Source: Hysterangium stoloniferum
Lineage: Eukaryota; Basidiomycota; Agaricomycetes; Hysterangiales; Hysterangiaceae
DNA length: 64,000 nucleotides
NCBI GenBank assembly: GCA_015178975.1
Contig: WHVD01000020.1
Location: 1-64,000 of the forward strand
Direction of reading: 5' to 3'
The position numbers and the translations under genes are program-made. The notes beneath the pieces are model-generated. The model did not search any database, was not told the DNA's origin, and was given only the letters and a program-made list of their open reading frames with translations. This document shows positions 1-63,205 of this stretch, in pieces; the stretch's first letter is position 1, and each line of letters begins with the position of its first letter.

Positions 1-1251
1 TTTCTTTATATATCCCTCCTTGATGCTGATTAGTAGCTGAGGATGACGCAATGCGAAGTCAGACTCGTCTTCCTGGTCGTTCCTTATTGCGTTATGAGTA
101 TCCCATTCTGACCATCGGACCTTTTGAGTTACTCCGAAAGGCTCCATAGAATCGAGTATGGTAGAGAAGACCGCTTTCTTAGCGGGTTCGTCTTTCCATA
201 GTTTTTCCTCAGTACTCTTGTCCAGAGAAGTCGAGGTGATAGCCTGCAAATCATCTCTAATAGGGCTCACGAAGGCTGGTACCGAGGGAGTCTGGACAGT
301 GGATCCACGTTGCTGTGAACTCTCCCTGCTCGATGCAAAATCTCGAGACCTGGAAATGCAGCGTATATCGCCCCCCATGCGGCTAGTCAACGATTAGTGT
401 TCTCGTAAGATCTAGCCCATTGCAGAGCTGCATAGTCCGTAATGAGCAGGACATGTTCACCTTCAATGAAAGGTTGAAAGTGGACCAGTCCCTCCTTTGC
501 TGCTAATGCTTCCCGTTCAGTAGGAGAATAGTTATGCTCAGCGCTTTTCAGCGTGCGACTCCAATATGCAATGACTCGTTCAACAGTAACTTCGGTCGCC
601 TCAAAAGTGGATCCCCACGAATCCGACCACTCAATCTCGGGCTGTTTGGTTTTGTACCGATGAACAAAGGATGGCACGTCCTGCGCACGGTCAAAAGCTA
701 ATTTGGCTTGGGCATAGATTTTAGTGTCCACTAAATCTCCTAAAGCCATCTTCTGGACTTGTTGGAGGCAACAACCCAAGGCAAAATCCGAAGCGTCCGT
801 ATACAATCGGTAGGGCATCCCACTAACTGGATGTCCCAGCACTGGAGCTGATCCTAATGCGGTTTTAACATCCTCATAAGCTCGGACATGTTCAGCAGTC
901 CACGTCCAAGGTGTTCCCTTTTTTAGGAGCGAGAATAAAGGGGACACCATCCATGAATAAAATGGTATATATGCTGAAAAGTAAAGGACCATTCCAAGGA
1001 ACCGTTGTAGATCAGAAACCTTAGTGGGTGGGGCCAATTCCAATATAGCGCGAACTTTTTCTTGGTGGGTTGAAAAACCCAGCCTAGATACTTTATGACC
1101 CAATAACAATATCGAATTATATCCGATAAAACATTTCTTGGGAGAGAGAGTGATACCGGCCAAAGCGATAGCGCCAAGCACCTGATTCAGGTGAAGCAAA
1201 TGATCATCCCAGTTCTTAGAGAATATGACTATGTCATCGATGTAGACTAAA
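1..1251 (-). pseudogene. A1 pol: RT palm end, connection and RNase H
   Basis: This continues the A1 polyprotein after a frame break. It starts at the YIDD reverse-transcriptase active-site region near 1210-1240, passes through the RT thumb, and reaches an RNase H domain containing LYTDASDFALGCCL near 790-830. Against A2, an extra base in a run of seven A (plus strand 1252-1258) causes the frame change. An in-frame TGA at 387-389 stands where A2 has CGA, and a one-base loss near 280 shifts the frame again before the window edge. The product would have copied element RNA into DNA. A homopolymer error in the assembly could explain the first break but not the others. Confidence 0.85.
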
Positions 1252-4200
1252 CAAAAAAATCCACAAGTAGGGTGCTAAAACTGTTTGCATGACGCGCTGA
1301 AATGTAGAGGGGCCGTTTCTGAGCCCAAATGGCATCCTTTTAAATTGCCACAGCCCTCTATGGGATCTAAAGGCTGTTTTGGGCTTATCGTCCTCCAACA
1401 TTTCTAATTGAGTAAACCCGGCTAGCGCATCGAAAGAAGAAAGAACATTTGACCCCGACAGCGCTTGCATAATCTCCGATTGACGTGGTAAAGGGAATTC
1501 GTCTGGAACAGTGAGATGGTTAAGTTTCCGATAGTCGATGACCACCCGCGGTTTACCATTGCGATATACTACAAAGGCTGGCACTCCCCAGGGGCTTTTA
1601 GATGGCTCAATGACACCCTGTTCGAACCAGGTATCCATTTTCTCGTCTATAACTCTCCTATTGGCAGGGGACGAGGGGAACATAGGCATGGATATGGGCT
1701 GGGCGCCCTCTTTCAAGGGGACAGGGACTCTACATTCCACTTGCCCTAACCGTCCGTCGACTCCGAAAGCCTTAATGTTCTCAGTCAAAACTGATCTGAG
1801 ATGTGGCAGGACCTCCGTTGGTATATCCGGTCCCAAATTGACTAACTTGTGAAGATCCTCTGAGGCAAATGTCTCATTATCAGCCACTGCAGCCGTCTTA
1901 GGACCAGGCGGTTCGAAATCGTCTGCAATCTCTGGTTCAACAGGTGGCTTAGGCCTTTCTGAGGCGACTTGACGGTCCTCCTCAAGTTGAGAGAGACTTT
2001 CGATAAGGTGTGCGATCTTGGTCGCGCCTGCTACCATTAAACCTTTCTCCTTGAGTGACCTGGGCTTGTGAGCCCAACGAGCAGGGTCATGAATTATCCC
2101 TATTGTCTCCCCTCGTCGGATAGTCTTAGGGGTTAGCGATGGATTGGCTAAAGGTACTGCCGCACTATTCCTTGAAATTGCCGTGATTGGTGCGGCTAAT
2201 ATAGAACCGTCCTCGTTTTGCAGTACAATTCCTTCAACAATCCATTCCTCGCCCTTTAGATCTTCAACAAAAATAGGCACTAGTCTGGCTGACTCTGGAT
2301 CGATAGTGCAATCCTCCAAGGCTCGCGCGACTCTTTCAGTATGCACACCTTTATCGGGGAGAGAGGCGAGTTTGGATGACTCCTTCTCATGCTTCCCGAA
2401 AGGGGCCTTATTGACGGTGAAGGTCAAAGGTTGAGGTTCCTTAGAAGAACTGGCTGGAATAAAACCCTGTTGTCCCGGGAGAATATGTCTAGATCCCAAC
2501 GGCTGATCTCTTAGAGTACCAATTTCATAATTAATATGGAAGTCTTCTCCCAAAAGAATTGGCACCGTCATTCCTCTAACGACATAAGTTTCTGCCACGA
2601 ACTTCAGTAACGTTCCACTGTCGTCCTCCAGGTAAATGGGAATATTAACATATCCGATAACCTTAGCGTTACCCGTGAGCTGGATTAGACGTAGCTTGAG
2701 TCCTTGTTTCAACTTATACATGCCCTGCAGTTCCTTGTAGAATTCCTCCGATATAAGGGAAAGATCCGCTCCCGTGTCCATTCGAATTTTAACGCGTTCG
2801 GGTGAATCGGGAGTTCCTACATGACCGAAAACATGGAGCGCTGCAACTCCTATGCTAGAGTAACCACTGGGAGGATCTCGTTTTCGATAAAGGATCGTAG
2901 TATCCTCCTTCATCAGACGACTGGGACGAGGGTATTGGATTCGAGGCCTCTTACTTTCCTTGCGCAGGGACAAGATTACGTTCCTGCGTTCACTTCGGCA
3001 AGGAACATGCTTCAAAGGGGAATCCAATACTGGATCATCGTCGCTGTCCTCCGAATCCGAATTCTCGTACGGTAGTAAATCGGGGGGGTTCCCGGGATCA
3101 AACGGGAACATGTCAACATCAGCTCCAGGTGAACAGAGCGAATTCGAACTGATTTGTTCGTGAGAATCTCCAGTCTGACAGTAGTCCTCGGTCAGGCCTT
3201 CAAGGTCCTGCCGATGAGCACTCAGCCGGTCTCCTTTTTCGAAGAAATCTGTGGCGAGTATGGATACGTAAGCTTCAGACAGAAGAGCTTCACCAGTCGT
3301 TCGATTTTCCTCCCTCACTAATTTGTCTTCGACATGGGGTGAATAAATGGAAACAAAAGTCAATTCGTCATCAGAGTTATTTACTTGTCCTTGTATAGAT
3401 AGTCCATGAACCGCTTCATATAACCTTTGCTCCTCAGCTTCCTCCGATATATCCTGTGCGGAGCATTTGTTGATAGAGACATAATGAGACATTTTACCAA
3501 CTTGAGGGCAGTCTATCTTAAAATGCTCCGGACTTCCGCATATCCAACATTCCTTGGTGGGTTTGACCGAACTCCTCTTGTTACTCCTCTCGAAGAACAT
3601 TTTTCCGTGACGCTTTCCCTGCTTTGGATCAGCGACGTCTGGAACGGTCCTTCTCGTCGAGCCTCTCTCGTTAGTCTCACTAGCGAGAATATGGTTAGGT
3701 GAAGAGGAGTCGCCGGTGACTCTAAAATCCAATTCTTGACCCTCCGATAACATTATGCGCGGTTTCTGGAACCTGTAACATTCCCGGTGTGTTTGGACCC
3801 AGGCATTAATCAGAGCTTCTTGCAGGTTATTAGCATAAGTCTGTAAACTCATGATATTATCGATGGGTTGTCCTTGAAGAAGGTAGAGCCATTCCGTAGG
3901 CAGTGTGAGAATGAGTCTGCGTGTCTCATCCCCTCTGTCCTGGTGGAACCCATACAGGAAACGATAAAGTTTAACTCTCTGTTGGATATAGTGGACGGGT
4001 GTCTCACGATCGTGACCAGCCTGTCGAAATTTCATAGCTTCCCATTCTAAGGCTAAGGATTCATGCCAACGAGTTCCAAGAAATCCTTCGACGATACCCC
4101 AAAGAAACGACCTATGAGATTGACTGAATTCAGTACGATGCTCACAGTCTAAGGTGCTCCACCAGACCTTAGCGTGCCCCTTGAGTCGTCTTGGCAGAGC

Positions 4201-5934
4201 AACTCCTAAGATCGCACTCATAGAGTCTGATATCTCCGCGAGACTCATGATATCCATGATATAGTCCAGGGCTTCGGATTGAGCTCCATCGTATTCAGGG
4301 AGATCAGACCATTTGATCTTGAGGTCGTTGGTGTTAAGAGTGACCTTCTTGTCCTTAGGTAAGTCATCAATAAGCGCGCTAGCTCGAGACCGCATCGGAG
4401 TTCGAAAAGGGGTATTAGGCACTCCATTGTGGCGTTCCCCACGTCCTGAGTTCCCTCCCTGGTCTGAAGTATTCGAACTCCCAGATGAATCGCTAGGGGG
4501 TCCTCCTGATGGCAAGAAAGGGTTTGAAGTGATCAGTAGAGAATGGCGGGGACCGTCTGGATTAAGCGATCCTTGACCAGCAACTGGGCCAGCTATGCCC
4601 TCAGTGAATGCCGTGGAGAAGGACGGTCGACCCTTGTTGGCGACTGATCGGTTTCTGAGAGTGGCCACTTCGTCCCTGAAGTTAGGGCTGTTGGAGACTC
4701 CCTCAAATGCGACGCGAGAGCAGTGATCTCCCTGGAAAGACGTTAGGCCCGGTTCCATCGCGATTTGTCTCTCGATCTCCGTCGTGTTCAGAAGTCGACA
4801 CGGCTGGGGTTGATGGAAGGGAGTGCAGACCTCAATCCTCTTCTCCTGAAGGCGTTCTATCACTTGTGTCCTCAAGTCCAGTGGAAAATCCTCCAATATT
4901 ACGGGACGGTTGAGAGAATGCAGAAAACGAGTATCAGGGGACCCGTTTAAGTTGCGAACGAACGAATTGGTCATGGAGATAGGCAAATCAGGGACCTGGA
5001 TCGAGTCGTTATAGGGGAGGAGTACCTCTAAAACCATCTTATCAAGTCTTCTTTGGTTTCGCTTCAACCGACCTCTTAAAGTGAGGTATGCCAGCGATAT
5101 ATTTGGCGTGACTCCATTGAGAGACTCCTCCAACATACGGATGTACATGTACTGGTAGTCAACCTTAGGCACAACATGATCTCCGCCAAGCAGGACATGC
5201 AGGATCTGCAACACATCATCATGCGTACGAAGTGCTTGAAGGAACATAGAAAACACCTCCCGCTTGAGAATTCTTCTTCCTCCTTCCATAGTAGTCGTCA
5301 CCTCATTCGACCATTCAGGAATCGATTGGGTCAAATCCTCAAGGTTCCCTGGTCGTGTGAATAAATCCCGCGCCGATAAAATCGCTTGATAACGCCCTAA
5401 CCAGACTGCTACAGTCTCCGGTAGAATAGGGTAATCCATACTGTACTCCTCCACGAAGGGGGTAACCTGATCCTCGGGGATTCGATCGGTGTAGTACATA
5501 TCCCATTTGTAATCGATGGGCTGGGCATAAACTATATGACCTCCGAGGAACTGCTTAAGGATGACCTGTCTCGGAGGGAATCTGAGAACGGGCGTGGGTG
5601 CTCGATTAGACTCAACGTTAACTCCAGGGGTGTCCAACTGCTCGAGTAATGAGCGTTCCTCAGGTGGATCGGGGGGAATGTTCATTGACGATCCAGCTAC
5701 TACTCCGGGGGAATCCTCTGGAGGAGGTGATCCTGGAGGAAGCTGGGGAATGTTCGTAGACGATCCAGCTACTACTCCGGGGGAATCCTCCAGAGGAGCT
5801 GATCCTTGAAAAGTCGACGAAGACTTCCTCAGGGTGACGTTACGGGGTGGTTCTAGGTTAAAAGATTTTTGACGAGGCATGGAGCTACCCGGCATTGATG
5901 AAGGCCTAGATGTTTGATTCTTGCCCGTAGTCAT
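1234..5934 (-). pseudogene. A1 Gag-protease-RT polyprotein (1566 codons, open)
   Basis: A long open frame starts at the ATG that is equivalent in A2. It has a Pro/Ser-rich N-terminus (residues 1-110) and a retrotransposon Gag core ending near residue 690. A CX2CX4HX4C zinc knuckle (CWICGSPEHFKIDC) follows near residue 793, then a retropepsin-like DTGA motif near residue 1051, then the first RT motifs (YRKLN near 1468, FDALAGF, MPFGLRN). The frame ends at LHR just before the YIDD box because of a one-base expansion in a T-run. It makes the particle protein and the start of the replication enzymes. The Gag portion is uninterrupted, unlike in A2, so this is the better preserved family A Gag. It is non-functional as pol without the frame repair. 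Confidence 0.9.
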
Positions 5935-6656: not shown

Positions 6657-7217
6657 GCCCCCAAAAGGTAAGCAACGGGTCCATGGGATATACCGTGGAA
6701 CTAACCATATCAACAGAAGGCAAGGAAGGCGGCGCCAGTCCGTCTTCCGACGTGGAATGATCCATGGTGTTCCAGTTGCAATGACCAGAACACAGAGTGT
6801 AATCAAAAGTCTGGGTGAGGACTGGGGTGCTACCAATGCGCACACCTCAAGGCAAGGTGTTCGCTTGTCCACGAGCAACCCACAGGATCTGGGGTGGAGG
6901 ACATTAATGGGACAGACGGGTTGTCCGGGTTGGACGAGGTACTGGGACGGATCACCGAGGGCATTGAGGCCCAAAATGAGTTGCTCCGGAAAAGCAACAA
7001 GGTCCACATAGTGGTGGCAAAGGAACTGTGTGGACTCCATGAGGAGTTTTGGAGATTCCTGGCAGAGTATGGTGACTATGTGTATGAAGAGCTGCAAGTC
7101 GGGAGTTCCGAGGATGCCGGGTCAGATGAGGACGGGGTTGCTGTGGAGGTCACGGAGCTCCCTGAGGAGATGGCTGAGGAAGTGGGGAAAAAACACAGTC
7201 CCATAAATGTAGACTGA
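6657..7217 (+). pseudogene. Zinc-cluster accessory gene, copy 1 (antisense to B1)
   Basis: The tail of exon 2 (6657-6667), a 49 bp GTAAGC...CAG intron (6668-6716) and exon 3 (6717-7217) are visible. Exon 3 encodes six cysteines spaced CX2CX6CX8CX2CX6C (about 6770-6865), with one TGA inside the cluster where the 50 kb copy has TGG. An acidic coiled region follows (GLDEVLGRITEGIEAQNELL, then EELQVGSSEDAGSDEDG). The gene runs tail-to-tail with the B1 pol. Exon 1 was cut off by insertion of A1 at 6656. The cysteine spacing matches the fungal Zn2Cys6 class; DNA binding is an inference. Confidence 0.7.
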
Positions 7218-17561: not shown

Positions 17562-17797
17562 ATGGCATCAAAATTAACACCACACAAACCAATTCTCAAC
17601 ACTGCTGGAACATCCACAGAGTCTGCGTATTGGACCCCTCTCACTTCTGTTCAAATTCTTGAGCAGCAGGAGAGACAAAAGAAATTGTGTGAGGAGGCCA
17701 AGAAGAAAGCCTGGGAAGATGAGGAGGAGATGGAACAGGAATACCAGATAGTATTGGCTGCAGAAAAAGCAGAGAAGGAGTGTCAGAGGAAAGACAT
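17562..17797 (+). pseudogene. Zinc-cluster accessory gene, copy 2 (exon 1)
   Basis: The frame MASKLTPHKPIL... aligns with exon 1 of the 50 kb copy (MGSKPTLRRPMP...), sharing SVQILEQQE/TATQILVQRE and the charged EEEMEQEYQIVLAAEKAEKE coiled coil. It lies antisense to B2, starting about 150 bp from the B2 polypurine tract, the same place as in B6. Homology stops near 17797, and exons 2-3 are replaced by unrelated AT-rich DNA. Confidence 0.7.
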
Positions 17798-24481: not shown

Positions 24482-25219
24482 TGTTATGACCGTGTCACAA
24501 CCCGACGGTCCCCGAGCTTATTGCCACCTATCAATGATTCAAGTCATCATTTGTGTCATCACATCAGAAACCGTCGGTCTTCCGATGCTGACATATGCTT
24601 TCATGGTGATCAAACTCCATTTACACCCACATCAAAATATACTCGTACTATCTGGTTAGACTCTGATACATCCCTTTTATTATGATGATCTGTTTCTACT
24701 CTGTGTTTCACATGTCTATATATACTTGTAACCCTTGGACTATTTCCTTTTCTCATAATTCCACTCTCGGTTATTTCACAGCCTCCCAACTAATCGTAGC
24801 CTTCCCATTCCTAGTCAAGCTTATTTGTCAATACTGCTTTCCACTCTTCTCCTAGTTAGTATTTTCCTAGATGCTGAATATTTCTATATGAACCTGCTGT
24901 AGTTGTAGTTACTAGGCAATCAGAATATCGACTCAGAGAACCCTCTCACACCTCTAGAAGTCTCATACTAAGTACCCTGCTATTCACCTTGGTGTGCACT
25001 CACCCACTCTCAGTTCCCGACCCCTTGGCCCGACACTCGACTTATCCTTTGGTTCCGATCAGTAACTCGCTGAGAGGTACTCATTAGGACTAGTCTTCTG
25101 TCCGAAATTTCAGGACACCCGACGGATAATTGTGAGGGCACAGCACATAAGCTGAAGCCAAGTCCTTCTGATTGGTCCCCATCAGCCTACCAACATTAGT
25201 CAGTTTTCAGTTCTTAACA
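24482..25219 (+). repeat. 5' LTR of C1
   Basis: The 738 bp LTR runs from TGTTATGACCG to GTTCTTAACA. It is highly similar to the 3' LTR (29315-30057); many of the differences are C/T or G/A transitions, especially at CpG. It contains ATCAAAATATAC at 24631-24642 and the shared AAGCTGAAGCCAAGTCCT block near 25149-25166. Confidence 0.9.
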
Positions 25220-25231: not shown

Positions 25232-25256
25232 TTCACACTCACATTTTCCGTTAATC

Positions 25257-25985
25257 ATGCCTCTGAGAAAAAGAGATGCCAAGCCAAGTGGCAAAGCAGA
25301 ATCTTCCACTCTCAAGTCTCCTTTCCTGTATACAGCCCGAGCTACCTTGAGAACCCTGCAACCGGAAACCTCTGAAGAATCCCACTTTGTGGAAATTACT
25401 GGTGATGCTGAAGAAATTACTGAAGCAACCGAACCTGAAGCACCTGAAGAGGATAACAATCAATCAGCTCTGGAACCCGAACCCGAGGATGGCGACCAAC
25501 CTGTACCTCAGGCTAGTGGTTCTAAGGAATTGTTCTCAGGTACCCTAGGATCCCTTAACGAATTCCTTAAAAGGAATACCAAGGAAAAAGAACCTGGGCA
25601 AACCCGAGTCAACAAACCCGAACCGTTTACCAGCTCAAACCTGAAGAAATTGCCAACATTCCTTATGCAATGTCAATTCAACTTTCGGGACCACCCGGCT
25701 GCTTTTGCAACGGATGACCAAAAGGTAAACTTCGCACTCTCGTACCTTAAGGATTTCACAGCAGCCTGGTTTGAACCCGCATTCTCCGGCCTCACCTCCA
25801 AAGATCCCAACTGGCTCCATGATTGGGATGCCTTTGTTGAGGAACTGGAAACAAACTTCAGTCCCTATGACCAAACTGGTGATGCCGAAACCATGCTTTC
25901 TAATCTCAAAATGAAAGACACCCAGTGCATCACCAACTACATCATCCAGTTCAACAACCTCGCCACACATTGTGACTGGGGCATT
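25257..25985 (+). pseudogene. C1 Gag, truncated
   Basis: The start MPLRKRDAKPSGKAESS parallels the MPPRRK start of family B. An acidic region (EEITEATEPEAPEEDNN) follows, then the Gag core: FLMQCQFNFRDHPAAF, WFEPAFSG, WDAFVEELETNFSPYD, MKDTQCITNYIIQFNN. The frame is open to LATHCDWG, after which RT thumb sequence begins, so the knuckle and protease are lost. Leader from LTR to ATG is 37 bp. Confidence 0.87.
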
Positions 25986-28081
25986 TTGAATATTTAGGTT
26001 TCATGATGGGACCCAACGGTCTCCACATGGACGACTCTAAAATTCAAGTCATTCAAGATTGGCTGGAACCCTGGAAGGTTAAGGATATTCAGTCCTTTTT
26101 AGGCTTTGCCAATTTTTATTGTCATTCATTCACAACTACTCAAAGAAAAATTACTGTTCCACTCACTCATCTTACTCATAAAGATGCCCTGTGGAATTTC
26201 TCTGAAGAATACCAAATGGCATTCTGAGAATTGAACAGTGCATTTACATCTGCCCCTATTTTGTCACACTGGAAGCCTGATGTTCAACTCATTGTGGAAA
26301 CTGACACCTTGGATTATATGCTTGCTGCGATATTGTCCATTTTGGACACCAATGGTGAAGTACACCCAGTAGCCTTTTTGTCTTGCACATTTTCAGCACC
26401 CGAACTCAACTACGATGTTCATGATAAAGAACTACTTGTGATATTTGAAGCTTTCAAAACATGGTGACATTATTTGGAGGGATCAGCTCACCTGATAGAT
26501 GTTATTACCGACCACAAAAATTTAGTTTACTTTTCAACCACAAAACTCCTCACCGGTCGGCAAGCCCAATGGTCCAAATTCCTCTCTGCTTTCAATATGG
26601 TAATCCGCTTCCGTCCCGGCCACCTTGGTGGAAAACCCAATGCTATGACTAGATGATGGGACATCTATCCTAAAGAGGGGAGTAGCGACTATGCCACAGT
26701 TAATCCACATAATTTCAAGCCTATGTTTTCACCGGAACAACTGTCCGCATCTATCCGAGCCACTTATCTCATTCATCCAGTCTTGTGAAGTGTTATCCTT
26801 ATGGATACTGAAAGGTTACATCAAGATATACTATCGGCAATTCCATTAGACCCAGTCACCAAAGCACACCTCGATAACCCATCTGACCTCAATCAACCCC
26901 GATGGTCACTAGACTCACAAGGTTTCATTAGACTTGACAACCACATCTTATGGCCTACTCAAACAATTACCGATACCAGAAAAACCCTGGAACTTGATTT
27001 CTATGGATTTCATCAAGCACCTACCAGCATCCAAAGGTTATACAGCAATCCTAGTTGTTGTGGATCAGCTCACAAAGCAAAGTATTTTCATTCCAACACA
27101 TGACACAATAACATCTATACAGTTAGCCAAATTATTTGTCACCCATGTATTTTCCAAGCACGGCATCCTGTCACATGTTACATCCGATCGTGGATCCGAG
27201 TTTGTCTCTCACTTTTTTAGGTCACTCGGAAAAGCACTACACATGAAATTACACTTCACTTTGGGCTATCCTGGAAGGCGATGGCCAAACCGAATGCATG
27301 AATCAAACTTTGGAATAGTACATTTGTGTTTAGTGTAACTATCAACAAGACAATTGGAAATCACTACTACCGCTAGCCGAATTCACATGTAACAACACAC
27401 TGAATGCCACTACTGGCATTTCACCTTTCTTCGCAAACAAAGGCTACAACCCCAATATTGCAATCCACCCGGAACACGATCTCGCATCCACCCACACTCA
27501 AGAGTTCATTACAAACCTTGACAAGCTACATCAAGAACTTTGTAAAACTATTGCAATGGCCCAAGAACGATATCAATGGTCTGTGGATAAAAACTGACTT
27601 CTGCCTCCTAATTTCAAGATTGGAGACCGAGTATTCATTAAAGCCGAGTTTTTCTGAACTACTAGACCCTCTAAGAAGCTCTCTGAAAAATATTTAGGTC
27701 CTTTTGAAGTTATAGCACAAACTGGCATGCTTTCATGGATGCTTCAGCTTCCCGATAACATGTGTGCAGTGCACCTGGTATTTCACATATCTATGTTAGA
27801 ATTAAGTGTTGCTAACAATATACCAGATTACATACAACCACCACCTCCACCCATGATCATTGACGGAGAACCTGAATTTGAGATATCAGAGATCCTAGAC
27901 TCAAAAATTGACAATCGCCGATGCTCATGCAAATTACTTTATTTGGTTAAATGGGCTGGCTATAAAGGTACAGACGAAGAAACTTCATGGATCCTAGCTA
28001 CAGAGCTCGGTAATGCCTGAAATCATTTTAGGGTTTCATCAAGCTTATCCGAATAAACCCAGTCCCCTAAATTCTCTATAA
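25986..28081 (+). pseudogene. C1 pol remnant: RT end, RNase H, integrase, chromodomain
   Basis: It starts at [11 protein letters not shown], then FLGFANFY. RNase H motifs follow ([39 protein letters not shown]), then an integrase core whose zinc domain is deleted (join after FIRLDNHI near 26945). The core keeps SMDFIKHLP, TSDRGSEF and, after a one-base shift near 27270, the Glu. The chromodomain (LYLVKWAGYKGTDEETSW) is near 27940-28010. Stops (for example TGA at 26466-26468 and 26654-26656) and frameshifts are frequent. Confidence 0.88.
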
Positions 28082-28165
28082 GTTGTCCCATGTGGAACTC
28101 GACCTTTTCCTGACTATGCCTTGTGAATTCACGCTATGTGGTTTGTTTTTTAAAAAAAAACATTA

Positions 28166-29141
28166 CTATCTAAAGGTTTCCTCTACAACCTCCCCTTCTT
28201 CTCTGGCCTCCGAACCTTCCCCCTCACCGACGGCCACCAACACCTCTTCACTGACTTTATCCGATACCCCAACTCCAGGCCCAACTCCATCGCAACTCGA
28301 TACTTCTAAATATTGTTCAAGTTGCTCCCCGAGAGACTCAATCGCACTGGTTTGTTTGTCCAACCTGATGCCCAGTAATCGCAGTTGCTCGCTCATGAGC
28401 CCCTGTTGTCATAATGTCTCGAATCGGAACCGAGTCATCTCCGAGAAGTAGGTGCACATGAGGCAGTTTTGTTCCTCTAATGCATCGGCCTGCCGTTCTT
28501 GGTAGGACCCGTTGCCATTGGCATCTGGGAATACGTACCCAAGTTTTTGGTTGGCGCACACTTGACAGGTGTGGCCCTGATGACTTGCCCGTGGATGGCA
28601 AGTCCGACCCCGTTTAGTGCACCAGTTGCACTTGGGGTCATTTTCAGGCCCCGCCTTGGGGGCCTGTTTTTGTTTCTATAATCAAAAATTAGAAAATGAA
28701 AAAAATTAGGAACCTGAACCCACCTTGGGGCTTGACGGCCCTGGTACATCCTCCTCATCCTCTTCCTCTTTGTCATCGGACTCTGAAGGCGTCGCAGCCT
28801 TGCACTAAAAAAAAGAGTCAGCAAAGTTCACGAAAGAAATGGGAACCCACTTACCTTTCCCTCTCACTTCTTCTTCGCCACCTCCTCTCGCGCCCGATCG
28901 GCCTCCTGCTGCTTCTTCTTTGCAAGCACTGCATCCCAGTGCTTGCATGCAGCCTCTTCCACTGCCAGTTTCTTTTCCTCGGCCTCTATGGCTGCCAACT
29001 CCTCCTTCTCCTTCTGCTCCTCCTCCTCGCGTGCCTTCCTTTTCTCCTTGAGTAGCCTTCACTAGATGGCCCACTCGGAACTGACATGGGAGTGACCATC
29101 AACTGAATCGGGTATGGCTTCGACCCCAAACCTATGGTCAT
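28166..29141 (-). pseudogene. Zinc-cluster accessory gene, copy 3 (three exons, inside C1)
   Basis: Exon 1 is 28855-29141: a start MTIGLGSKP, then after a frame change a long Lys/Glu coiled coil. A 50 bp intron (28805-28854) with GTAAGT...TAG follows. Exon 2 (28724-28804) is acidic (ESDDKEEEDEEDVPGPSSPK); intron 2 is 48 bp (28676-28723). Exon 3 (28166-28675) carries CX2CX6CX10CX2C (CNWCTKRGRTC, then CQVC), a second Cys pair (CLMC) and a C-terminal helix. It runs convergent to C1 pol. One TGA in exon 1 and one in exon 3 break it, both plausible CGA changes. A regulator is plausible; the function is not known. Confidence 0.72.
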
Positions 29142-29314
29142 GGTGGTCAAGGGAAGAGAAGTGAAAAATCAAGCGTCAGTACCCCTTGAATTTTTATATG
29201 TAAATTTTTACTGAGTCACATGATGTTTTGACACACCAACCATACCCGACAAGCTTTTATGTACGGAATCTAGATTTTCAGCCTCCTTGGGATTTCCGCC
29301 AAATGCAGGGATAC

Positions 29315-30057
29315 TGTTATGACTGTGTCACAACCTGATGGTCCCCAAGCTTATCGCCACCTATTGACAATTCAAGTCATTGTTTGTGTCATCACATTGG
29401 AAACCATTGGTCTCCCGATGCTGATGTATGCTTTCGCAGTGATCAAACTCCATTTACACCCATGTCAAAATATACTCGTACTATCTGGTTAGACTCTGAT
29501 ACATCCCTTTTATTATGATGAGCTGTTTCTACTCTGTGTTTCACATATGTCTATATATAGTTGTAACCCTTGGACTATTTCCTTTTCTTGTAATTCCGCT
29601 CTTGGTTATTTCATGGCCTCCCAACTAATTGTAACCTTCCCATTCCTAGTCAAGCTTATTTGTCAATACCGCTTTCCACTCTTCTCCTAGTTAGTATTTT
29701 CCTAGATGCTGAATATTTGTATATGAACCCACTGTAGTTGTAGTTACTAGGCAATCAGAATATCGACTCAGAGAACCCTCTCACACCTCTAGAAGTCTCA
29801 TACTAAGTACCCTGCTATTCGCCTTCGCATGCGCTCGCCCACTCTTGGTTCCTGACCCCTTGGCCCGACACTCGACTTATCCTTTGGTTCCTATCAGTAA
29901 CTTGCCGAGAGGTACTCATTAGGACTAGTCTTCACCCATCTGAAATTTAAGGACACCCGACAGATAATTGCGAGGGCACAGCACATAAGCTGAAGCCAAG
30001 TCCTTCCGATCGGTCCCCGTCGGCCTACTGACATTAGTCAGTTTTCAGTTCTTAACA
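29315..30057 (+). repeat. 3' LTR of C1
   Basis: The 743 bp LTR runs TGTTATGACTG to TTCTTAACA, preceded by a short purine-rich tract (GCAGGGATAC). The LTR-internal priming block has one change (GTCAAAATATAC) relative to the 5' LTR. Confidence 0.9.
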
Positions 30058-49505: not shown

Positions 49506-50084
49506 ATTACATTGCAAATAATCCCTTTTCCATTGTTCATTTATTGTGAATCAGTAAAGCATATTCACATAAATAAATACTGAGAATATCCTTGCAAGAT
49601 CCTAAGACTACATTAAGATCCTGATAAGTTAGTATCACAGTAGACCCTGTAGGTTAGAGTAAATAAAGCATATATTAGCCAAATAAGTGTTTTATTCTAT
49701 ATCTAATCTTTTGACCTGTTTATAAATATTTTTATTGTTTGATAAATAGTATAAAATATATAAAAACTAGCTAGAATTGAAGTTAAATCTAGCTTCGCAA
49801 TCAGTAAATTGTTATTCTTATTTTAATAGTTGTTGTCACAGAAAAAGAACAAGCAGCTCTCAAAACCTTCTTTGCGAAGTAGGGTGCATATATTCAAGTA
49901 AACTCTTGACTTCAGGGGTTCTAAGTCTACCAAGGCTCCCACGGATTAATATCAAATACTTAAATTATTTTACCTTGCAGTAAATTGAGTATTTGCACAT
50001 TTTGATAGAGCATTGGACTCCTTTTTCAGAAAATAGTATTAAAATAAGGCTAATACATTACAACTGTGCTTCTTCCCCACCTCA
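49506..50084. other. AT-rich stretch, no gene
   Basis: No ORF of note. A short coding-like run (VTEKEQAALKTFFAK) occurs near 49835-49880 but leads nowhere. Confidence 0.4.
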
Positions 50085-50481
50085 GCCATCTCCTCAGGAA
50101 GCTCCGCTACCTCCATGGGAACCCCATCCTCATCCAACCCAGCATCCTCGGAACTCCCAATCTGCAGCTCTTCATACACATAGCTGCCGTACTCTGCCAG
50201 GAACTTCCAAAATTCCTCACAGAGCCTGCAGAGTTCCCTAGCCACTACCACCTGCACCTTGTTGCCCTTCCTAAGCAACTCATTTTGGGCCTCTATACCC
50301 TCAGTGATCTGCCCCAAAACCTCATCCAAACCCGAAAACCCATCTGACCTGCTCATTTCCTGTGCCACGGACCCCATGGGCTGCTCGTGAACGAGTGAGC
50401 ACCTCACTTTGAGGTGCATGCACTGGAAGCAGCCCAGTCCCCACCCAGACTTCTGATTGCAATCAGTGTTCTGGTCATTAC

Positions 50482-51228
50482 TGTTAAGAACTGAAAACTG
50501 ACTAATGTCAGTGGACCGACGGGGACCGATCAGAAAGACTTGGCTTCAGCTTACATATGTGCTGCGCCCTCACAGTTATCCATCAGGTGTCCTTAAATTT
50601 TGGGTGGGCGAAGACTAGTCCTAATGAATACCTCTCGGCAAAACTACCGATCGGGATCAAGGGATAAGTCGAGTGTCAGGCCAAGGGGTCGGGGACCAAG
50701 AGGGGGCGAGCACATGCGAAGGCGGATAGTGAAATACTTAGTATGAGATTTCTATAGATGTAAGAGGGTATTCTGAGTCGATATTCTGATTGCCTAGTAA
50801 CTACAACTACAGTGGGTTCATATACAAGTATCAGGTGTCCAAAAAACACTAACTAGGAGAAGAGCGGAAAACAGTATTGACAAATACGCTTGACTAGGAA
50901 CAGGAAGGTTACAATTAGTTTGGAGGCCATACATTAACCGAGAGTGGGATTACGAGAAAAGGAAAAAGTCTGAGAGTTACAAGTATTTTTAGACATGTGT
51001 GAAACATAGAGTAGAATGGATCATCACAATGAAAAGGGACATATCAGAGTTTAACCAGATAGTATGAGTATATTTTGATGGGGGCATAAACGGAGTTTGA
51101 TTACCACGAAGGCATACGTCAGCATCAGGAAACTGATGACTTCCAATGTGAGGACTTGAGCGATGACTTGAATCGTCGATAGGTGGCGATAACCTCAGGA
51201 ACCGTTGGGTTGCGACACGGTTGTAACA
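50482..51228 (-). repeat. Solo LTR of family C in accessory-gene exon 3
   Basis: The 747 bp copy begins TGTTACAACCGTG and ends GTTCTTAACA on the minus strand, flanked by ATTAC (50477-50481) and ATTAT (51229-51233), a 5 bp duplication with one transition. It splits the codons between CSSY and NDQNTDC of the zinc cluster. Confidence 0.88.
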
Positions 51229-51608: not shown

Positions 51609-52268
51609 GGTGCCACTTTCCTTGTCTTCTGTAGATGTGGTTAGTTTCCAGAATATCAATGGACCTGAGACTTACCTTCTGGGGGCTCTCCGGCTCCCCC
51701 TCAGACTCCAATTCAACGTCTGCCACCTTGCACTGACAATGCCAAGTCAGTTAAGTCGACATGTTGTAACTATGGGACTTACCTTTCCCACAGCAACTGC
51801 GGCCCTATCCACAGCCACCTGGGCTTTCTCCACAGTGACCCGTGCAGCCTCCTCCTCATCCTTCTTCCTCTGCTTCTCAGCTCCTTTCTCCACGGCCAAT
51901 GCCACCTGGTATTCCCTATCCAGCTGCTCTTCAGCCTCCTTGTCCTCCCTCTCCACCTCTTCTCGTTGACGTTGCTGTTCCTCACGCTGCACCAATATTT
52001 GGGTAGCGGTGAGAGGCGCCCGATATTGAGTGTCTGTGGAGGGCCTGGCAGTTGGCATTGGTCTTCGCAATGTTGGCTTTGAACCCATTTATGTCAAAGA
52101 TGGGGGTAATAAAGAAGAAGAAAATTCATTTTTTCAATTTTTTATATAGGCTCGTCATGTTTGAACCTTACCTTCCAGATCATGTGACTTTTGACACATG
52201 CGTGTAGCTGACAAAAACCTTATCAAGTTCTAGAGCCTCTTTGGGACTTCGGCATAAAGGGAGGGTAT

Positions 52269-57406: not shown

Positions 57407-60400
57407 ATGTCAATGTTTCCAACCTCCCCGGCTAATAGGAAAGTCATTGACGAACAAATGGACACTTGGTTCCAACAGGGAGTGATTGAACCGTCCAAGA
57501 GTCCTTGGGGGGCGCCAGCCTTTGTTGTCTATCGCAATGGGAAACCACGAGTAGTGATTGACTATAGAAAGTTGAACAGCCTAACGGTTCCCGATGAATT
57601 TCCGCTGCCACATCAATCGGAAATCATGCAGGCACTCTCGGGATCCAACATCTTATCTTCCTTCGATGCACTAGCTGGTTTTACCCAACTTGAAATGTTA
57701 GAGGAAGACAAGCCGAAGACAGCCTTCAGATCCCATCGAGGACTGTGGCAATTTAGGAGAATGCCCTTTGGACTTCATAATGGACCTTCTATATTCCAAA
57801 GGGTTATGCAAACTGTACTTGCACCCTACTTATGGATATTCTGCCTAGTTTATATTGACGACATCGTGATCTTTTCTAAGACATGGGACGATCATCTAGA
57901 GCATTTGGACCAGGTCCTACAAGCCATAATTGCAGCGGGAGTCACTCTCTCGCCCAAAAAGTGCTACGTGGCGTATAATTCGATTCTACTACTAGGACAT
58001 AAGGTGTCTAGACTTGGCTTTTCGACCCATCAAGAAAAGGTCGCCACTATATTGGAATTAGCCACGCCTTCTAAGATAGCAGACCTTCAACGTTTTCTCA
58101 GAATGGTTCTGTACTTCTCTGCTTACATACCATTCTACTCCTGGACGGTTGCTCCACTTTTCAACCTCTTAAAGAAAGGAGTTCGTTGGCATTGGGATTC
58201 AGAACACGCCCGAGCTTTTGAAGACATCAAAGTTGCATTGAGTTCAGCTCCAGTACTTGGACACCCTGCGAGCAGTATGCCTTATAGGTTATACACAGAC
58301 ACTTCGGACTTCACGCTGGGATGTTGCCTCCAGCAAATACAAAAAATGACGCTTAAGGACCTAAAGGATACGAAAATTTATGCCCAAGCAAGGGCAGCTT
58401 TCAATCAATCACGAGACATCCCCATTTTTGTTACTCGTTATAAAACCAAGGAGCTGGAATTCACCTGGACGGATTCCTGGGCCGCAGATTTTGATGACAC
58501 CAGTGTCAAATGTAACTACTCAGCCACAGAGCGAGAAGCGTTAGCTGCTAAAGAAGGATTGGTCCATTTCCAGCCCTTTATCGAGGGAGAACATATCCTT
58601 TTGATCACTGACCATGTGGCGTTACAATGGGCCAGATCTTACGAGAATACTAATCGTCGACTGGCCACATGGGGGGCAGTATATGCTGCATACCCCGGTC
58701 TGGAAATCCTACATAGAGCAGGACGGATACACAGCAACGTTGACCCATTATCTAGACTTCCTCGAGTACCTGACTGTGCTAGCCCCGCGAGAGACGATCT
58801 CTTACCAATCGTAGTGGATTCTTATAACCGGAACGACAATGAGACGTTATGGGAGAACAAACCAGCGGAAAAGACCGTCTTTCTCACTCATCACGAGTTA
58901 GTTGAACCTGTCGGAACCGTCGAAGAGGTCCCCCAAATGAAATGGGACTTGCACAACCTTCCCAGAAACAATGAGACTGATGAGGCGGATTTTACTCTCT
59001 CGAATCCACAATTGCTTATAGAGATCAATGAGAATTACGCTAAGGAACTTCGCGATGGATACCAGAAAGATCCCGCCTTCAGGAATTATTATGCCGCCGA
59101 TCCCATTTCTCCAAACATGGTAGCCACTCCTTCGCATTATTTTATCGGCAAGAACAAGCTATTGTTCTTTCGAGATTCGGACTGGAAAAGTCGAATCTGC
59201 ATTCCTAGCAGCATGACGACAACCATACTCAAGCTGATACATGATAATCCTTTCGAAGGAGCTCATGCAGGCAGCCACAGGCTCTTTAATCTGATGAAAG
59301 ACCGTTTCTTCTGGCCGAGGATGTTGCATGACTGCGTGGCGTATGCTCGCAGCTGCGACATATGCCAGAAAACTAAAATTGATCATTCCGCTCGACAAGG
59401 AGCTCTTCGACCCGCGGATGTGCCCCTAAGGCCGTTTGAGGTTGTCTCGATTGACCTGATTACTGGATTGCCTCCTTCTACAGAGGGTGGTTATTCCGCC
59501 ATCTTCATTGCCGTGGATAAACTCACGTGTTTCTTAATCTGTGAACCCACCACTTCAGATCTATCCGCAGAAGGATTCGCACGAATCTTCGTGAATAAAG
59601 TAGCCGCTCCTTTCGGCCTGCCTTCAAGGATAATCTGTGATCGAGACAAGAGATGGACCTGTAGGTTCTGGAGAGAAGTCTGCAAAGTATACGGAAGTGC
59701 CCTTGCAGTATCCTCATCCCACCATCCTCAGACCAACGGTCAAATGGAGAACACTAATGCTATTGTGGAGCAAATGCTCAGAGCGTACTGCGCCTCTTCG
59801 AAGGAGGAATGGTCTAAATGGACTCAAGTAGTGGCTCATACCTACAATTCGACAGTTCAAAGCTCAAAAAGCTATGCACCGGCCTTTTTGCTGATGGGCT
59901 ACTTACCAAGAGGAATGTCTAGCTGTCTGGGAGGGGACGACCCTGTGGTTCCCAGAGAATTATCGGATAGCCCTGTAGCCGACCAATGGATCTTAGAATT
60001 GGAAAATCACCAACAAGCGGTGCGGGATTCGATTGTGTGAGCACAAGAAACCCAAGCTCGCAGTTACAACAAGAGACGGAGATTAGTGGAAGATATCTCA
60101 GAGGGAGATTATGTTCTGATTAATCCCCATTCTCTCGAGCTCGTTGAAGCCAAGGGACCCGGAAGAAAACTTATACAAAGACGGATAGGGCCGTTTGAGG
60201 TCTTGGAAAAGATCAATCCTCAAGTCTTCCGACTCCACATTCCCTCGGAATATCAATTACATCCAGTGATTAATCGAGACTATCTTAAAAAGTACCACCC
60301 TAAGGAATTCAGATCCAGGGAGCTACTCGAGAACCCTCGAGAACTCAATCGTAACGACGAGGAGTACGAAGTAGAAGCTATAGTAGGGCACAAAAAGCAT

Positions 60401-60529
60401 CGAAATCGACTCATTTTCCAGGTTCGATGGAAAGGGTATGGACCGGAGGAGGACACTTGGTTAAACAGCAATGACCTTCGTAATGCTCCCGCTCTTCTTA
60501 GAGCTTACAAGATTATTTATCGAATTTAA
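57407..60529 (+). pseudogene. A2 RT, RNase H, integrase and chromodomain
   Basis: The 877-codon part (57407-60040) contains RT (VIDYRKLN, FDALAGF, MPFGLHN and the catalytic Y149-I-D-D152) and RNase H (D298 in LYTDTSDF, TDHVALQW, DPLSR). Integrase follows, with an H2C2 zinc domain (HDNPFEGAHAGSH...CDICQ) and a DD35E core D683 (SIDL), D745 (CDRD), E781 (QMEN). All catalytic residues are present. A TGA at 60038-60040 separates the last part (60041-60529), which holds LIFQVRWKGYGPEEDTW, a chromodomain. Apart from this stop the enzyme region is open, making A2 pol the best preserved in the window. Confidence 0.93.
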
Positions 60530-60726
60530 TGATCATTTCACATCCTTACGACGACAACACTGTTTATCTACTTCTAGCTCTACCCCCCCCCACTTTCTTC
60601 CCCCTCGGCCTTTCACTTCAATAACCGAGCAGAGCTTGAAATTAATATAAAATACGTAAATTTGCTAAAGAAAATTTTATTCCCCCTATCTCTTCCCTCC
60701 ACGTCAACCTCTCTAATCAGTACACT
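60530..60726 (+). other. Spacer between pol and ORF3
   Basis: About 200 bp with a C-run (60585-60594). No conserved motif recognised. It might hold a promoter or splice acceptor for ORF3. Confidence 0.4.
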
Positions 60727-63205
60727 ATGTCGCAGGAGCAACAACCCAAACCCCAAGTCCCCCAACTTCAAAAGAATACTGCGACCTCAACCTATTAATA
60801 CCTCTACCACGCCATCTCGCACTGAACAAGTCGAGCACTCCACGAGTAACCCTGGAACACCTTTGCCAATACCCTCTGCTGTGCAGGGCGACATCGCGGG
60901 AACATCCACCAACTCGGGGAATGGAACCGCCTTTACTCCATACGCTCCTCTTCCCAGACCCCGATTTCCCAATTTTAAAAGAATACCTCGACCTCAAACT
61001 ACAGTTCCTTCTGCCCCATCACCTCGAACAGAAACTGTCGAGCATGTGGAGGAGACCTCATCATCCACGAATCCTATGCGGATGGACTCCATTTCAAAAG
61101 CTGCACCATGGTCCTCTAATACTTGGGGGGCTCCCTCGGGAACATGGAGTGAAACCCCACCACCTTCTCGTAGTATTTTCCCTTCTACCGAGGAGGAGAT
61201 CAAAAAGAAACAGCAGTCTGAGGCCTTCTCTGCGCAGGTTCAGGAAGAATTGAAAACCCTTAAACGGAAGAGGAGAGAGGAGTACTTGGAAGGACAGCGG
61301 AGGATGGGGGCTAGGGATAATGTCCCTTCAAGGCAGACATGGCAGGAATGGAGGAAAATGGAAGGGCACGATAATCCTTCAATCATCGCTCCCCCTTCGG
61401 GTCATAAATGGACAGATTTCGCTGAAATGGATTGCAGCGACGGGGGCACGCCATGTGTTCGGAGTGTAGGACAAAAAAGTAGGAAAGGAAAAGATGGGGT
61501 CACCTTCTACGATTGGGACAAAGTACAAAGGATCAAATTACAAAGCATTGCATTGCGATGTGGAGATGGAGTTGCACTACCTCCCAGACCCCCTTCACAA
61601 TGTGGACCTCAGGAACGGACCTACCGGATGGGGCCCAGTGATCTTTCATCTGACTCGGAGGACGACCAATCTCGCTACCCCACCTACGACAGCAAGTACC
61701 TCGGTGCTGACTGCCATGAAGGTTTCCTACTCCCTGACAACATTCACTTCTTCACGAGTGATCCTAACCAATGACGAAAGCTACCAACTTCCATCAGAGT
61801 TTGGAGAGGGTATCGTCCAGCAGACTCTGCAACCCCATCCAGTTCCTCTCATCTCCCTCCACCTCCGCCGGTCTCTTCCGTACCCACATTACAGCACTTT
61901 ACACCCTTTTCGGAGCTACCGGGAAGTCTTGTACCATCCTCCAAGCTGCCTTCTCTTCCCCCTATACCACTACCCCTCCCCTTCACAGGACATTCTCTTA
62001 TATCACCGCCCTCATCCATACCCAAGCCTCCTCCAGCACCGCAGCCAATCTCACCCCTCCACACGTCACCTGACCCTCTCGTCGCCTCCCACTCTACTCC
62101 GATGCCTTTGGTCCCTGCGGTGTCTAACATTCCCCTCACTTCCTTGACAATGTGGAGTCCACCACCCGCCTCTCCCTACTCCCCTTGTGTTTCTCTGGGA
62201 AGCCCCATTCAGCATCCTAACGATACATTAATGGATATTGATCACCCTATCCCGGAAGTTCTCGCAACGCCTATGGAGGAAGTCCTCAAAGCGCCTCTCT
62301 CAGCCACAGATGTCTCCAAGGAACCCCCCCCGGCAATGGAAGCCTTCGAGGAGCCTCCCCCCTTAAGCGAGAAAGCAAAAGGGAAACGAAGAACCGATAC
62401 TCAGGCCGACGAGCCCCTTGTCATGGACCCCCCCCCGGCCCACCCCATTCGCAGCCCCCCGCTGCAGCCATCCTCTCCCCTCCACTCTGAGGATACGGCT
62501 GGCCCCTCCCATCCCTGCCAGTCAAGTTGGATGCGCGTGTCCATTAATTACCCCTCCGACATCTTCACTGTGGGATGCACATTAACGTGACTGGGACCAA
62601 CCCTGCAGCACCCCCTTCTTAAAGGGCATATCCAGGGGTATAGTGGGTCTCTCACGTTGTCGGACCGCATGAGTGCATTTTATTTATGCGTCAACGACCC
62701 TAAGTAACAGCTGCGTTTAGCGGAGGATATCGAACGGGTGGAACTTTCCATGTTTCGGTCCTTACTTGTCAACTCTTCTTGTGTTCTTCCTGACCACACA
62801 CCAACCCACTCTGCAGTGGACCTCATTGACTTGTTGGAGCAACTGTTGCCGGATTCGGACACCTCGAGAGGAATCCCCCCTGGGGGAGACATGAGCTCCA
62901 CACCGCTCATCACTCCTACCCCGCCATCACTACACCCTCGACCCCCTCTCATTGCCCATATTACTGACGCTTCCGCTGATCGCATTCGCGCCATAATTCA
63001 AATGCGCCAGAAGGCCTACGGTCATTGGGTCTCGTCGATCCAAAAACTGGATGGGTTGACAGCCAATGATGCTTCGAGGCGGGAGGACATCGCTCTTTCC
63101 TTTCATGCCAAGCGTCTTGCCTGGGGCAACACTATCCTACACCTTGGGGGTTCATCGCAGGATGCATGGGGAGGAGTTCCAAGCATCCTTCGACATCTTC
63201 TTTGA
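60727..63205 (+). pseudogene. ORF3 of A2, about 840 codons, unknown function
   Basis: One reading frame runs from about 60662 to 63205, broken by TGA at 61772-61774, TGA at 62588-62590 and a TAA near 62705. The likely ATG is 60727 in a neighbouring frame, with a shift in the C-rich stretch near 60745. The product has two copies of PNFKRI(L/P)RPQ (about 60765 and 60975), a basic coiled stretch (EELKTLKRKRREEYLEGQRR), a region with WTDFAEMDCSDGG, long Pro/Ser-rich segments and a helical C-terminus (ADRIRAIIQMRQKAYGHWVSSIQKL). No Env, protease or DNA-binding signature recognised. It ends 25 bp before the 3' LTR. Confidence 0.7.

Follow-up and report, generated by a model that had tools for sequence, protein, structure and literature searches.

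Is a spliced gene read from the minus strand of a retrotransposon a part of that element or a chance neighbour, and what could be its use? The question is raised by a stretch of 64,000 nucleotides (hereafter the window) from contig WHVD01000020.1 of the ectomycorrhizal false truffle Hysterangium stoloniferum, in which a Gypsy element, C1, carries a three-exon gene between its pol stop and its 3′ long terminal repeat (LTR), on the opposite strand, as had been proposed by a first, sequence-only reading. The gene resides in two related families of chromodomain Gypsy elements, denoted B and C, in which it lies antisense just inside the 3′ LTR, and the protein that it specifies is under purifying selection; six conserved cysteines of this protein likely form a zinc cluster, an identity not confirmed, and its function is probably regulatory. 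The element and its antisense gene are laid out in the window as follows.

24482..25219, plus strand: 5′ LTR of C1, a direct repeat of the 3′ LTR (91%) that matches the young family C LTR
25252..25985, plus strand: gag remnant of C1 (blastn against the gag of the young copy L028, 85–89%)
25986..28081, plus strand: pol remnant of C1, ending after the chromodomain and lacking the protease and most of the reverse transcriptase (RT) (blastn against L028 pol, 89%)
28079–28081, plus strand: last pol stop of C1, read from the sequence
28166..28675, minus strand: antisense gene, exon 3, which specifies the zinc-cluster-like stretch, the long helix and the acidic tail
28676..28723, minus strand: intron 2, GTGGGT...TTATAG
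28724..28804, minus strand: exon 2, acidic linker, with junctions matching those of the annotated protein P0001
28805..28854, minus strand: intron 1, GTAAGT...TTTTAG, with CTGAC inside
28855..29141, minus strand: exon 1, Glu/Lys-rich helix, start codon at 29141
29142..29314, minus strand: leader and putative antisense promoter, with a purine tract adjoining the LTR and counterparts in 12 aligned family B and C leaders
Complement of 29190–29199, minus strand: TATA-like ATATAAAAAT in the leader
Complement of 29216–29223, minus strand: TCATGTGA in the leader
29315..30057, plus strand: 3′ LTR of C1, TG...CA

Translation of positions 28,082 to 29,314 in all minus-strand frames placed the gene (28166–29141) entirely inside the interval between the pol stop and the 3′ LTR, with a Glu/Lys-rich exon of ~96–100 codons, an acidic exon of 27–28 codons and a cysteine-cluster exon of ~165–170 codons, split by two introns of 48–50 bp having GT..AG ends. 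The window copy is decayed: its exon 1, of 287 nt against 300 in most relatives, is 13 nt shorter and frame shifted, it contains in-frame stops (e.g., at 28411 in exon 3), and the change of the sixth cysteine to Tyr leaves it without the full six-cysteine pattern. No target duplication was seen at C1.

Pieces of the family B gene, also pointed out in the sequence-only reading, were recovered elsewhere in the window.

6716..7217, plus strand: family B1 exon 3, tail-to-tail with pol, 86% identical to the intact family B copy L032
17562..17795, plus strand: family B2 exon 1 fragment, end approximate, translation beginning MASKLTPHKP..., weak tblastn match
50063..50476, minus strand: family B6 exon 3 fragment, 77% identical to L032 exon 3
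51808..52088, minus strand: family B6 exon 1, 72% identical to L032 exon 1
52097–52264: family B6 leader, with the LTR from 52269

The B2 piece at 17562 is the weak member of this set, being assigned solely from its translation and tblastn match. Within the B6 antisense gene, between exons 3 and 1, a family C LTR is found at 50482–51228 on the strand opposite to B6.

Young copies of the two families

The genome searches were made in the 111-Mb, 554-contig assembly of H. stoloniferum, and young elements were found in which the antisense gene is intact. In family C, the LTRs of L028 have 1 difference in 720 positions (up to 99.9% identical) and are flanked by a 5-bp target duplication, CAGGG, whereas those of L029 are 99.3% alike, with the duplication CATAA. 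L028 has a gag frame of 441 codons and a pol broken by an insertion, while the pol of L029 consists of two long open pieces. The insertion in L028, the youngest C copy examined, measures roughly 1.2 kb (~3590–4789), lies within RT and is not in L029. Both elements have an antisense gene of 292 codons, with the ATG 172–173 bp from the LTR and the gene stop ~100 bp from the pol end. The family B copy L032 (LTRs 97.6%, no target duplication seen) repeats the layout of family C with an intact antisense gene of 294 codons. The distance from start codon to LTR is about 174 bp in family C and 209 bp in B; in both families the two introns are at equal positions and in phase 0 (...GK/RKA..., ...SP(Q)K/K...), and both exon junctions are shared by P0001.

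The sense-strand genes identify the hosts of this gene as chromoviruses, i.e., chromodomain Ty3/Gypsy elements, which are recognised by gag–pol domains, a chromodomain and TG..CA LTRs. Retrotrans_gag, protease, RT, RNase H, integrase and Chromo are above the Pfam cutoffs in family C, and the chromodomain (PF00385) scores 26.3 bits in C (L029) and 30.3 in B against a cutoff of 25.1, the family B scan having covered gag and the pol end only.

Linkage of the gene to the element

How regularly does the gene accompany the element? Search with the DNA of the window gene, in which the best 40 of 365 candidates were scored, listed 43 matches including the gene itself, the other 42 having 78–88% identity except for one 30-base piece at 97%. 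With the exon-3 protein piece the best 150 of 603 candidates were scored, many with an open frame of 164 residues, and with the family B exon-3 piece the best 150 of 1227, 20 of which share a single score (286.2 bits). The genes of young copies, used as DNA, gave matches all of at least 95% identity among the best 40 of 299 (family C) and the best 40 of 727 (family B); these are nearly all full length and have the same place and exon plan. The candidate totals in these searches are loose first-look numbers.

An independent view is obtained starting from the 3′ end of pol, picked without regard to the gene; here the best 40 of 1662 candidates in family C and the best 40 of 1534 in family B represent the closest pol ends and not a census of intact elements. 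In family C, an opposite-strand match to the gene lies 261–642 bp downstream of pol in 33 of these 40. Six of the remaining seven were fetched, the seventh being at a contig end: in L055 and L059 the sequence runs on into the gene (L059 leaves its contig inside exon 3), and in the other four the gene is partial, with a 68-bp deletion in one, losses of ~485 and ~533 bp in two and a break in exon 3 in one. The gene is therefore present in 35 of 39 testable C pol ends, partial in the other four and completely absent from none of the 39; among the 35 positives, C167 matches over 756 of 976 bases and C26, the most widely spaced, matches in exon 1 alone. The two larger losses, in the young copies L054 (about 485 bp) and L057 (about 533 bp), took away the greater part of exon 3 with a portion of exon 2, sparing exon 1 and the pol end. 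In family B, the gene is found 230–238 bp downstream of pol in 35 of 40 cases, one further pol end being at a contig end and four not scored either way, so that it is present in 35 of 39 testable copies. Over both families, 68 of the 80 best pol matches have an antisense gene match 230–642 bp downstream.

Seen from the gene, a 3′ LTR lies within 280 bp of the start codon in 37 of 44 fetched loci and a pol end within 735 bp beyond the gene stop in 41 of 44, L012 being scored in this count by a second gene, of family B, that lies at the edge of the locus. The 44 copies include 19 older C loci picked by similarity to the window copy and 20 gene-only loci picked by open frames and diversity; they are mutually related, so that counts taken over them are not independent, and since loci were picked by similarity, open frames and diversity, the proportion of intact genes (11 of 44) is not a random rate. 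The contention of the sequence-only reading that the gene belongs to the elements is borne out by this recurrence at one place with one exon plan, and a host gene that merely lies beside elements is excluded by the adjacency of LTR and pol. Neither of the two outcomes that would have told against that reading was found: the gene is not missing from most of the copies examined, nor does it occur mainly beyond LTR borders as a host family.

Relatives among 5.8 billion proteins were limited to H. stoloniferum P0001–P0005, with no ascomycete, in a search that needs shared 5-residue words. Transposable elements are often masked before annotation. Because of this masking and of the word requirement, the lack of relatives elsewhere is weak evidence, in line as it is with a gene that does not exist mainly as a host family outside LTRs.

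P0001 (C537:71926–72972) was considered as a stand-alone gene or host ancestor and rejected, being a decayed fragment instead. It maps to C537 at 98% and 96% in two segments and at 78% and 80% in two further ones, where the alignment may overrun the exon ends; its DNA (L033, 2.4 kb) contains a stretch 74% identical to the gene and interrupted by stops, beside which neither an LTR nor a gag or pol match was found.

In the older C copies (L009–L027), as judged by eye from the translations, decay seems to consist mostly of Arg changes to Trp, Gln or stop, as predicted for CG to TG mutation.

Splicing signals and selection on the antisense protein

GT..AG ends occur at both introns in 41 of the 44 copies, and a CTRAY branch motif is found in 39 (intron 1) and 37 (intron 2) of 44, compared with 16% and 13% in shuffles. 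Lengths that are multiples of three are met in 35, 41 and 27 of 44 copies for exons 1, 2 and 3; for the two introns the counts are 17 and 12 of 44.

Selection was estimated on the 11 intact copies only. The pairwise ratio of nonsynonymous to synonymous divergence (dN/dS) is 0.11–0.33 in family C (15 pairs, 6 intact copies) and 0.15–0.34 in family B (10 pairs, 5 intact copies), with dS among intact pairs reaching 0.71, and of the six frames that of the gene itself gives the lowest value (0.24, 0.27). Divergence by codon position is.058/.071/.184 and.071/.099/.230, divergence at third positions being roughly twofold to threefold that at the other two, and that of the introns is 0.13–0.17. The choice of intact copies would lower dN somewhat, yet hardly to these ratios at dS values of 0.3–0.7. 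The antisense protein is under purifying selection.

Could the selected frame be a sense one? A low ratio (pN/pS, from proportions of nonsynonymous and synonymous differences, of 0.36 and 0.34) is also seen in the sense frame whose wobble position coincides with that of the gene; the register of that frame in exon 3 (offset 1, assigned by reasoning) contains 3–7 stops in every one of the 11 intact copies, and because of these stops, and since it gives no account of the introns, it was rejected. One other exon-3 sense register is stop-free in 3 of the 11. A chance open reading frame (ORF) is likewise excluded, by the shuffles, the selection and the recurring copies.

The cysteine cluster and the predicted fold

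When 18 exon-3 proteins from families B and C are aligned, the cluster shows no variation at its six cysteines or at one Gly and one Lys, in a part of the protein that is only 28–33% identical between B and C; indeed, blastp of the full L028 and L032 antisense proteins against each other gave no match at E 0.001, while gag is 53% and pol 67–82% identical between the families. The spacing is CX2CX6CX10CX2CX6C in family C and CX2CX6CX9CX2CX6C in family B, to be compared with the Zn2Cys6 pattern, C-x2-C-x6-C-x5..16-C-x2-C-x6..8-C. Full Zn2Cys6 spacing is kept in 39 of the 44 copies, many of them otherwise decayed. When the intact proteins of L028 and L032 were shuffled, 100,000 times each, the six-cysteine spacing never arose. 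When a profile of the 18 exon-3 proteins was compared with the PDB, LEU3 was the best match (E 0.7) and Pho7 the third (E 1.2), none being significant; both matches are to Zn2Cys6 domains, with all six cysteines aligned. AlphaFold predicts, for the most part confidently, a long helix after the cluster, at residues 55–125 in family C (predicted local distance difference test, pLDDT, mostly >90) and 69–122 in family B.

Leader and LTR motifs

A TATAA-type stretch is present in every one of the 12 family B and C leaders that were aligned and precedes the start codon by 57–58 bp in L028 and L032; upstream of it the octamer TCATGTGA recurs in 12 of 12; a second similar stretch was noticed by eye in five of six family B leaders. 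The family B LTR (L032 1050–1871 and 8327–9147) contains clustered CCGGAC/GTCCGG sites, 7 against 0.9 expected in shuffles; neither CCGGAC nor its complement occurs in the family C LTR.

Other elements in the window

Two other elements deserve mention. The large one at ~52.3–63.9 kb has several sense ORFs after pol (60086–63205; 370, 217 and 155 residues among them), and the three that were scanned gave no Pfam match at E 0.01. At 1234–5934, in a further Gypsy family, a single ORF of 1566 residues contains a long region, with a CCHC knuckle at about residue 800, fused to part of RT.

Possible function of the antisense gene

If the gene belongs to the element, what does it contribute? In our judgement it probably encodes an antisense DNA-binding regulator of its own element, acting on LTR or leader DNA in the manner of the retroviral factor HBZ. 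Transcription would proceed inward from the gene's own TATA-type promoter, in the ~175–210 bp leader adjoining the polypurine tract, and the antisense mRNA would lose two introns to yield a product of ~290 residues. This product would resemble a nuclear protein: it would start with a charged helix and a linker of acidic and basic residues, continue with cysteines in a Zn2Cys6-like cluster and a long helix through which two copies could pair, and end in an acidic tail; bound to LTR or leader DNA, it would set the transcription of the element or resist its silencing. In LTR elements the sense RNA alone is copied back into DNA; the introns would survive because the reverse-transcribed RNA is the sense genomic RNA, in which antisense splice signals are unread, making this a clean case of how retroelement introns can persist on the strand that is not reverse-transcribed. 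Divergence between the families combined with constraint within each of them fits a protein that may be tracking the target DNA of its own family. A more ambitious version, which we put forward tentatively and with more doubt than conviction, is that in fungal chromoviruses a spliced antisense gene gives rise to a dimeric zinc-cluster protein that binds family-specific motifs of its own LTR and switches on or shields the element, protein and target co-evolving.

Several results weigh against a zinc-cluster regulator. Zn_clus (PF00172) remained below its cutoff in every scan, with 13.7 bits at best against 21; it gave no match at E 1 with the full intact L028 and L032 proteins, and in the exon-3 set, of which 13 of 18 members match at E 10, the best E value is 0.33. 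The second PDB match of the profile, RPB9 (E 0.82, also not significant), is not a Zn2Cys6 protein; the cysteine blocks are modelled with low confidence (mean pLDDT 46–50 in C, 36–44 in B); Foldseek with the family C model found no PDB match, and neither Foldseek nor VIA-align gave a zinc-cluster match for that model. Charged helices would be as much at home in a protein that binds RNA or chromatin, and the family C LTR has no clear enrichment of CGG-type sites. The zinc cluster announced by the sequence-only reading thus stands as far as the six-cysteine spacing is concerned and falls short of a Pfam or fold match, and since it is the spacing together with weak matches that supports it, its identity is to be taken as likely.

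The main rival has the protein act against silencing: like VANC of the Arabidopsis VANDAL elements, it would bind the element's own non-coding DNA and remove or block host methylation or heterochromatin, instead of adjusting rates of transcription. The antisense protein does diverge far more (about 30% identity in exon 3) than gag or pol, as a protein engaged in an arms race or specific for its target would, and the family B LTR contains clustered CCGGAC repeats; the targets of VANC are often tandem repeats varying between related transposable elements (PMC5735166). The family C LTR has no such repeats, and we hold this alternative to be rather improbable. Appreciably less probable still is an accessory structural protein, such as a nucleic-acid chaperone, an integration-targeting factor or a Gag partner, with some other cysteine knuckle; the unconfirmed fold and the charged helices would suit it, whereas the separate promoter-like antisense leader and the acidic tail would better fit a regulator, and the cysteine spacing agrees with the Zn2Cys6 pattern.

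Might the gene be of no use to the element at all? Zn2Cys6-type genes are common in fungi, and one of them could have been captured once from the host and copied along as a passenger. LTR elements are known to capture genes (PMC7264820). Purifying selection in two families, with dN/dS not near 1, retention of the gene in 35 of the 39 young C copies that could be tested and relatives found in H. stoloniferum only all speak against a passenger, which we regard as the least credible of the explanations. It is only slightly easier to believe that the antisense RNA and not the protein matters, pairing with genomic RNA and yielding small RNAs or limiting copy number; its position over the pol–LTR interval would allow this, and such a role has been discussed for plant elements (PMC7264820). 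An RNA-only role, on the other hand, predicts none of three features, namely dN/dS of 0.11–0.34, multiples of three far commoner among exons than among introns and invariant cysteines, so that selection must be acting on the protein.

A regulator acting on its own element is therefore the reading that we retain in the comparison that follows. It has long been known that Gypsy elements can carry extra antisense genes, whose function is unsettled (PMC7264820, PMC11963269). The present gene occurs in very many copies, and because it offers intact young members, selection at the protein level, introns, promoter-like motifs and a cysteine pattern of the fungal transcription-factor type, the question of function becomes testable.

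Comparison with known systems

The gene brtn of Boty-like Gypsy elements in Botrytis cinerea was reportedly described by Zhao et al. (2011, Virology 417:248). Boty is a fungal chromodomain Gypsy element carrying brtn in antisense (PMC7264820, PMC8365987, PMC4227169), and a BRTN-like transcript is on record for Monilinia (PMC5987419). The likeness extends to the place, the extra antisense gene of Boty being classed with the pol–3′ LTR type; the difference, in a comparison made by description only, is an ascomycete host there and a basidiomycete here. That a chromodomain Gypsy element of a fungus should carry an antisense gene is thus not new, and only the spliced, six-cysteine, basidiomycete form of such a gene can be; as far as we have seen, the new features are the conserved introns, the six-cysteine pattern, the basidiomycete host and the measured selection.

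In plants, as the sequence-only reading had noted for the Grande/RIRE2 group, Retand, Grande and RIRE2 have antisense ORFs at this place, proposed to encode DNA-binding regulators, and the product of Grande GENE23 is nuclear and its gene has its own promoter (PMC11963269, PMC7264820). Retand belongs to a non-chromovirus plant lineage and has the TRP28 domain (PF04195), for which there was no Pfam match in the intact B and C proteins or among the families listed for the 18 exon-3 members. The main text of these two sources uses no word beginning with "intron" for the plant ORFs.

HBZ of human T-cell leukemia virus type 1 (HTLV-1) and APH-2 of HTLV-2 are spliced genes on the antisense strand, transcribed inward from the 3′ end, and each specifies a small regulatory factor (PMC3185765). 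The antisense placement and the presence of introns are shared by the present gene, inward transcription and the regulatory role probably so; on the other hand, HBZ belongs to a retrovirus, its transcript starts inside the 3′ LTR and it is a basic leucine zipper and not a cysteine-cluster protein, and no relationship is claimed.

A parallel of another kind concerns what the product may act upon. VANDAL elements are DNA transposons. Their VANC, in Arabidopsis, is encoded by the element and acts on sequence motifs of its own elements (PMC5735166); it differs in belonging to plant VANDAL elements and in that anti-silencing is demonstrated there and a mere possibility here. If the proposed control circuit is true, it would represent a fungal counterpart of HBZ and VANC, with introns marking which strand is copied.
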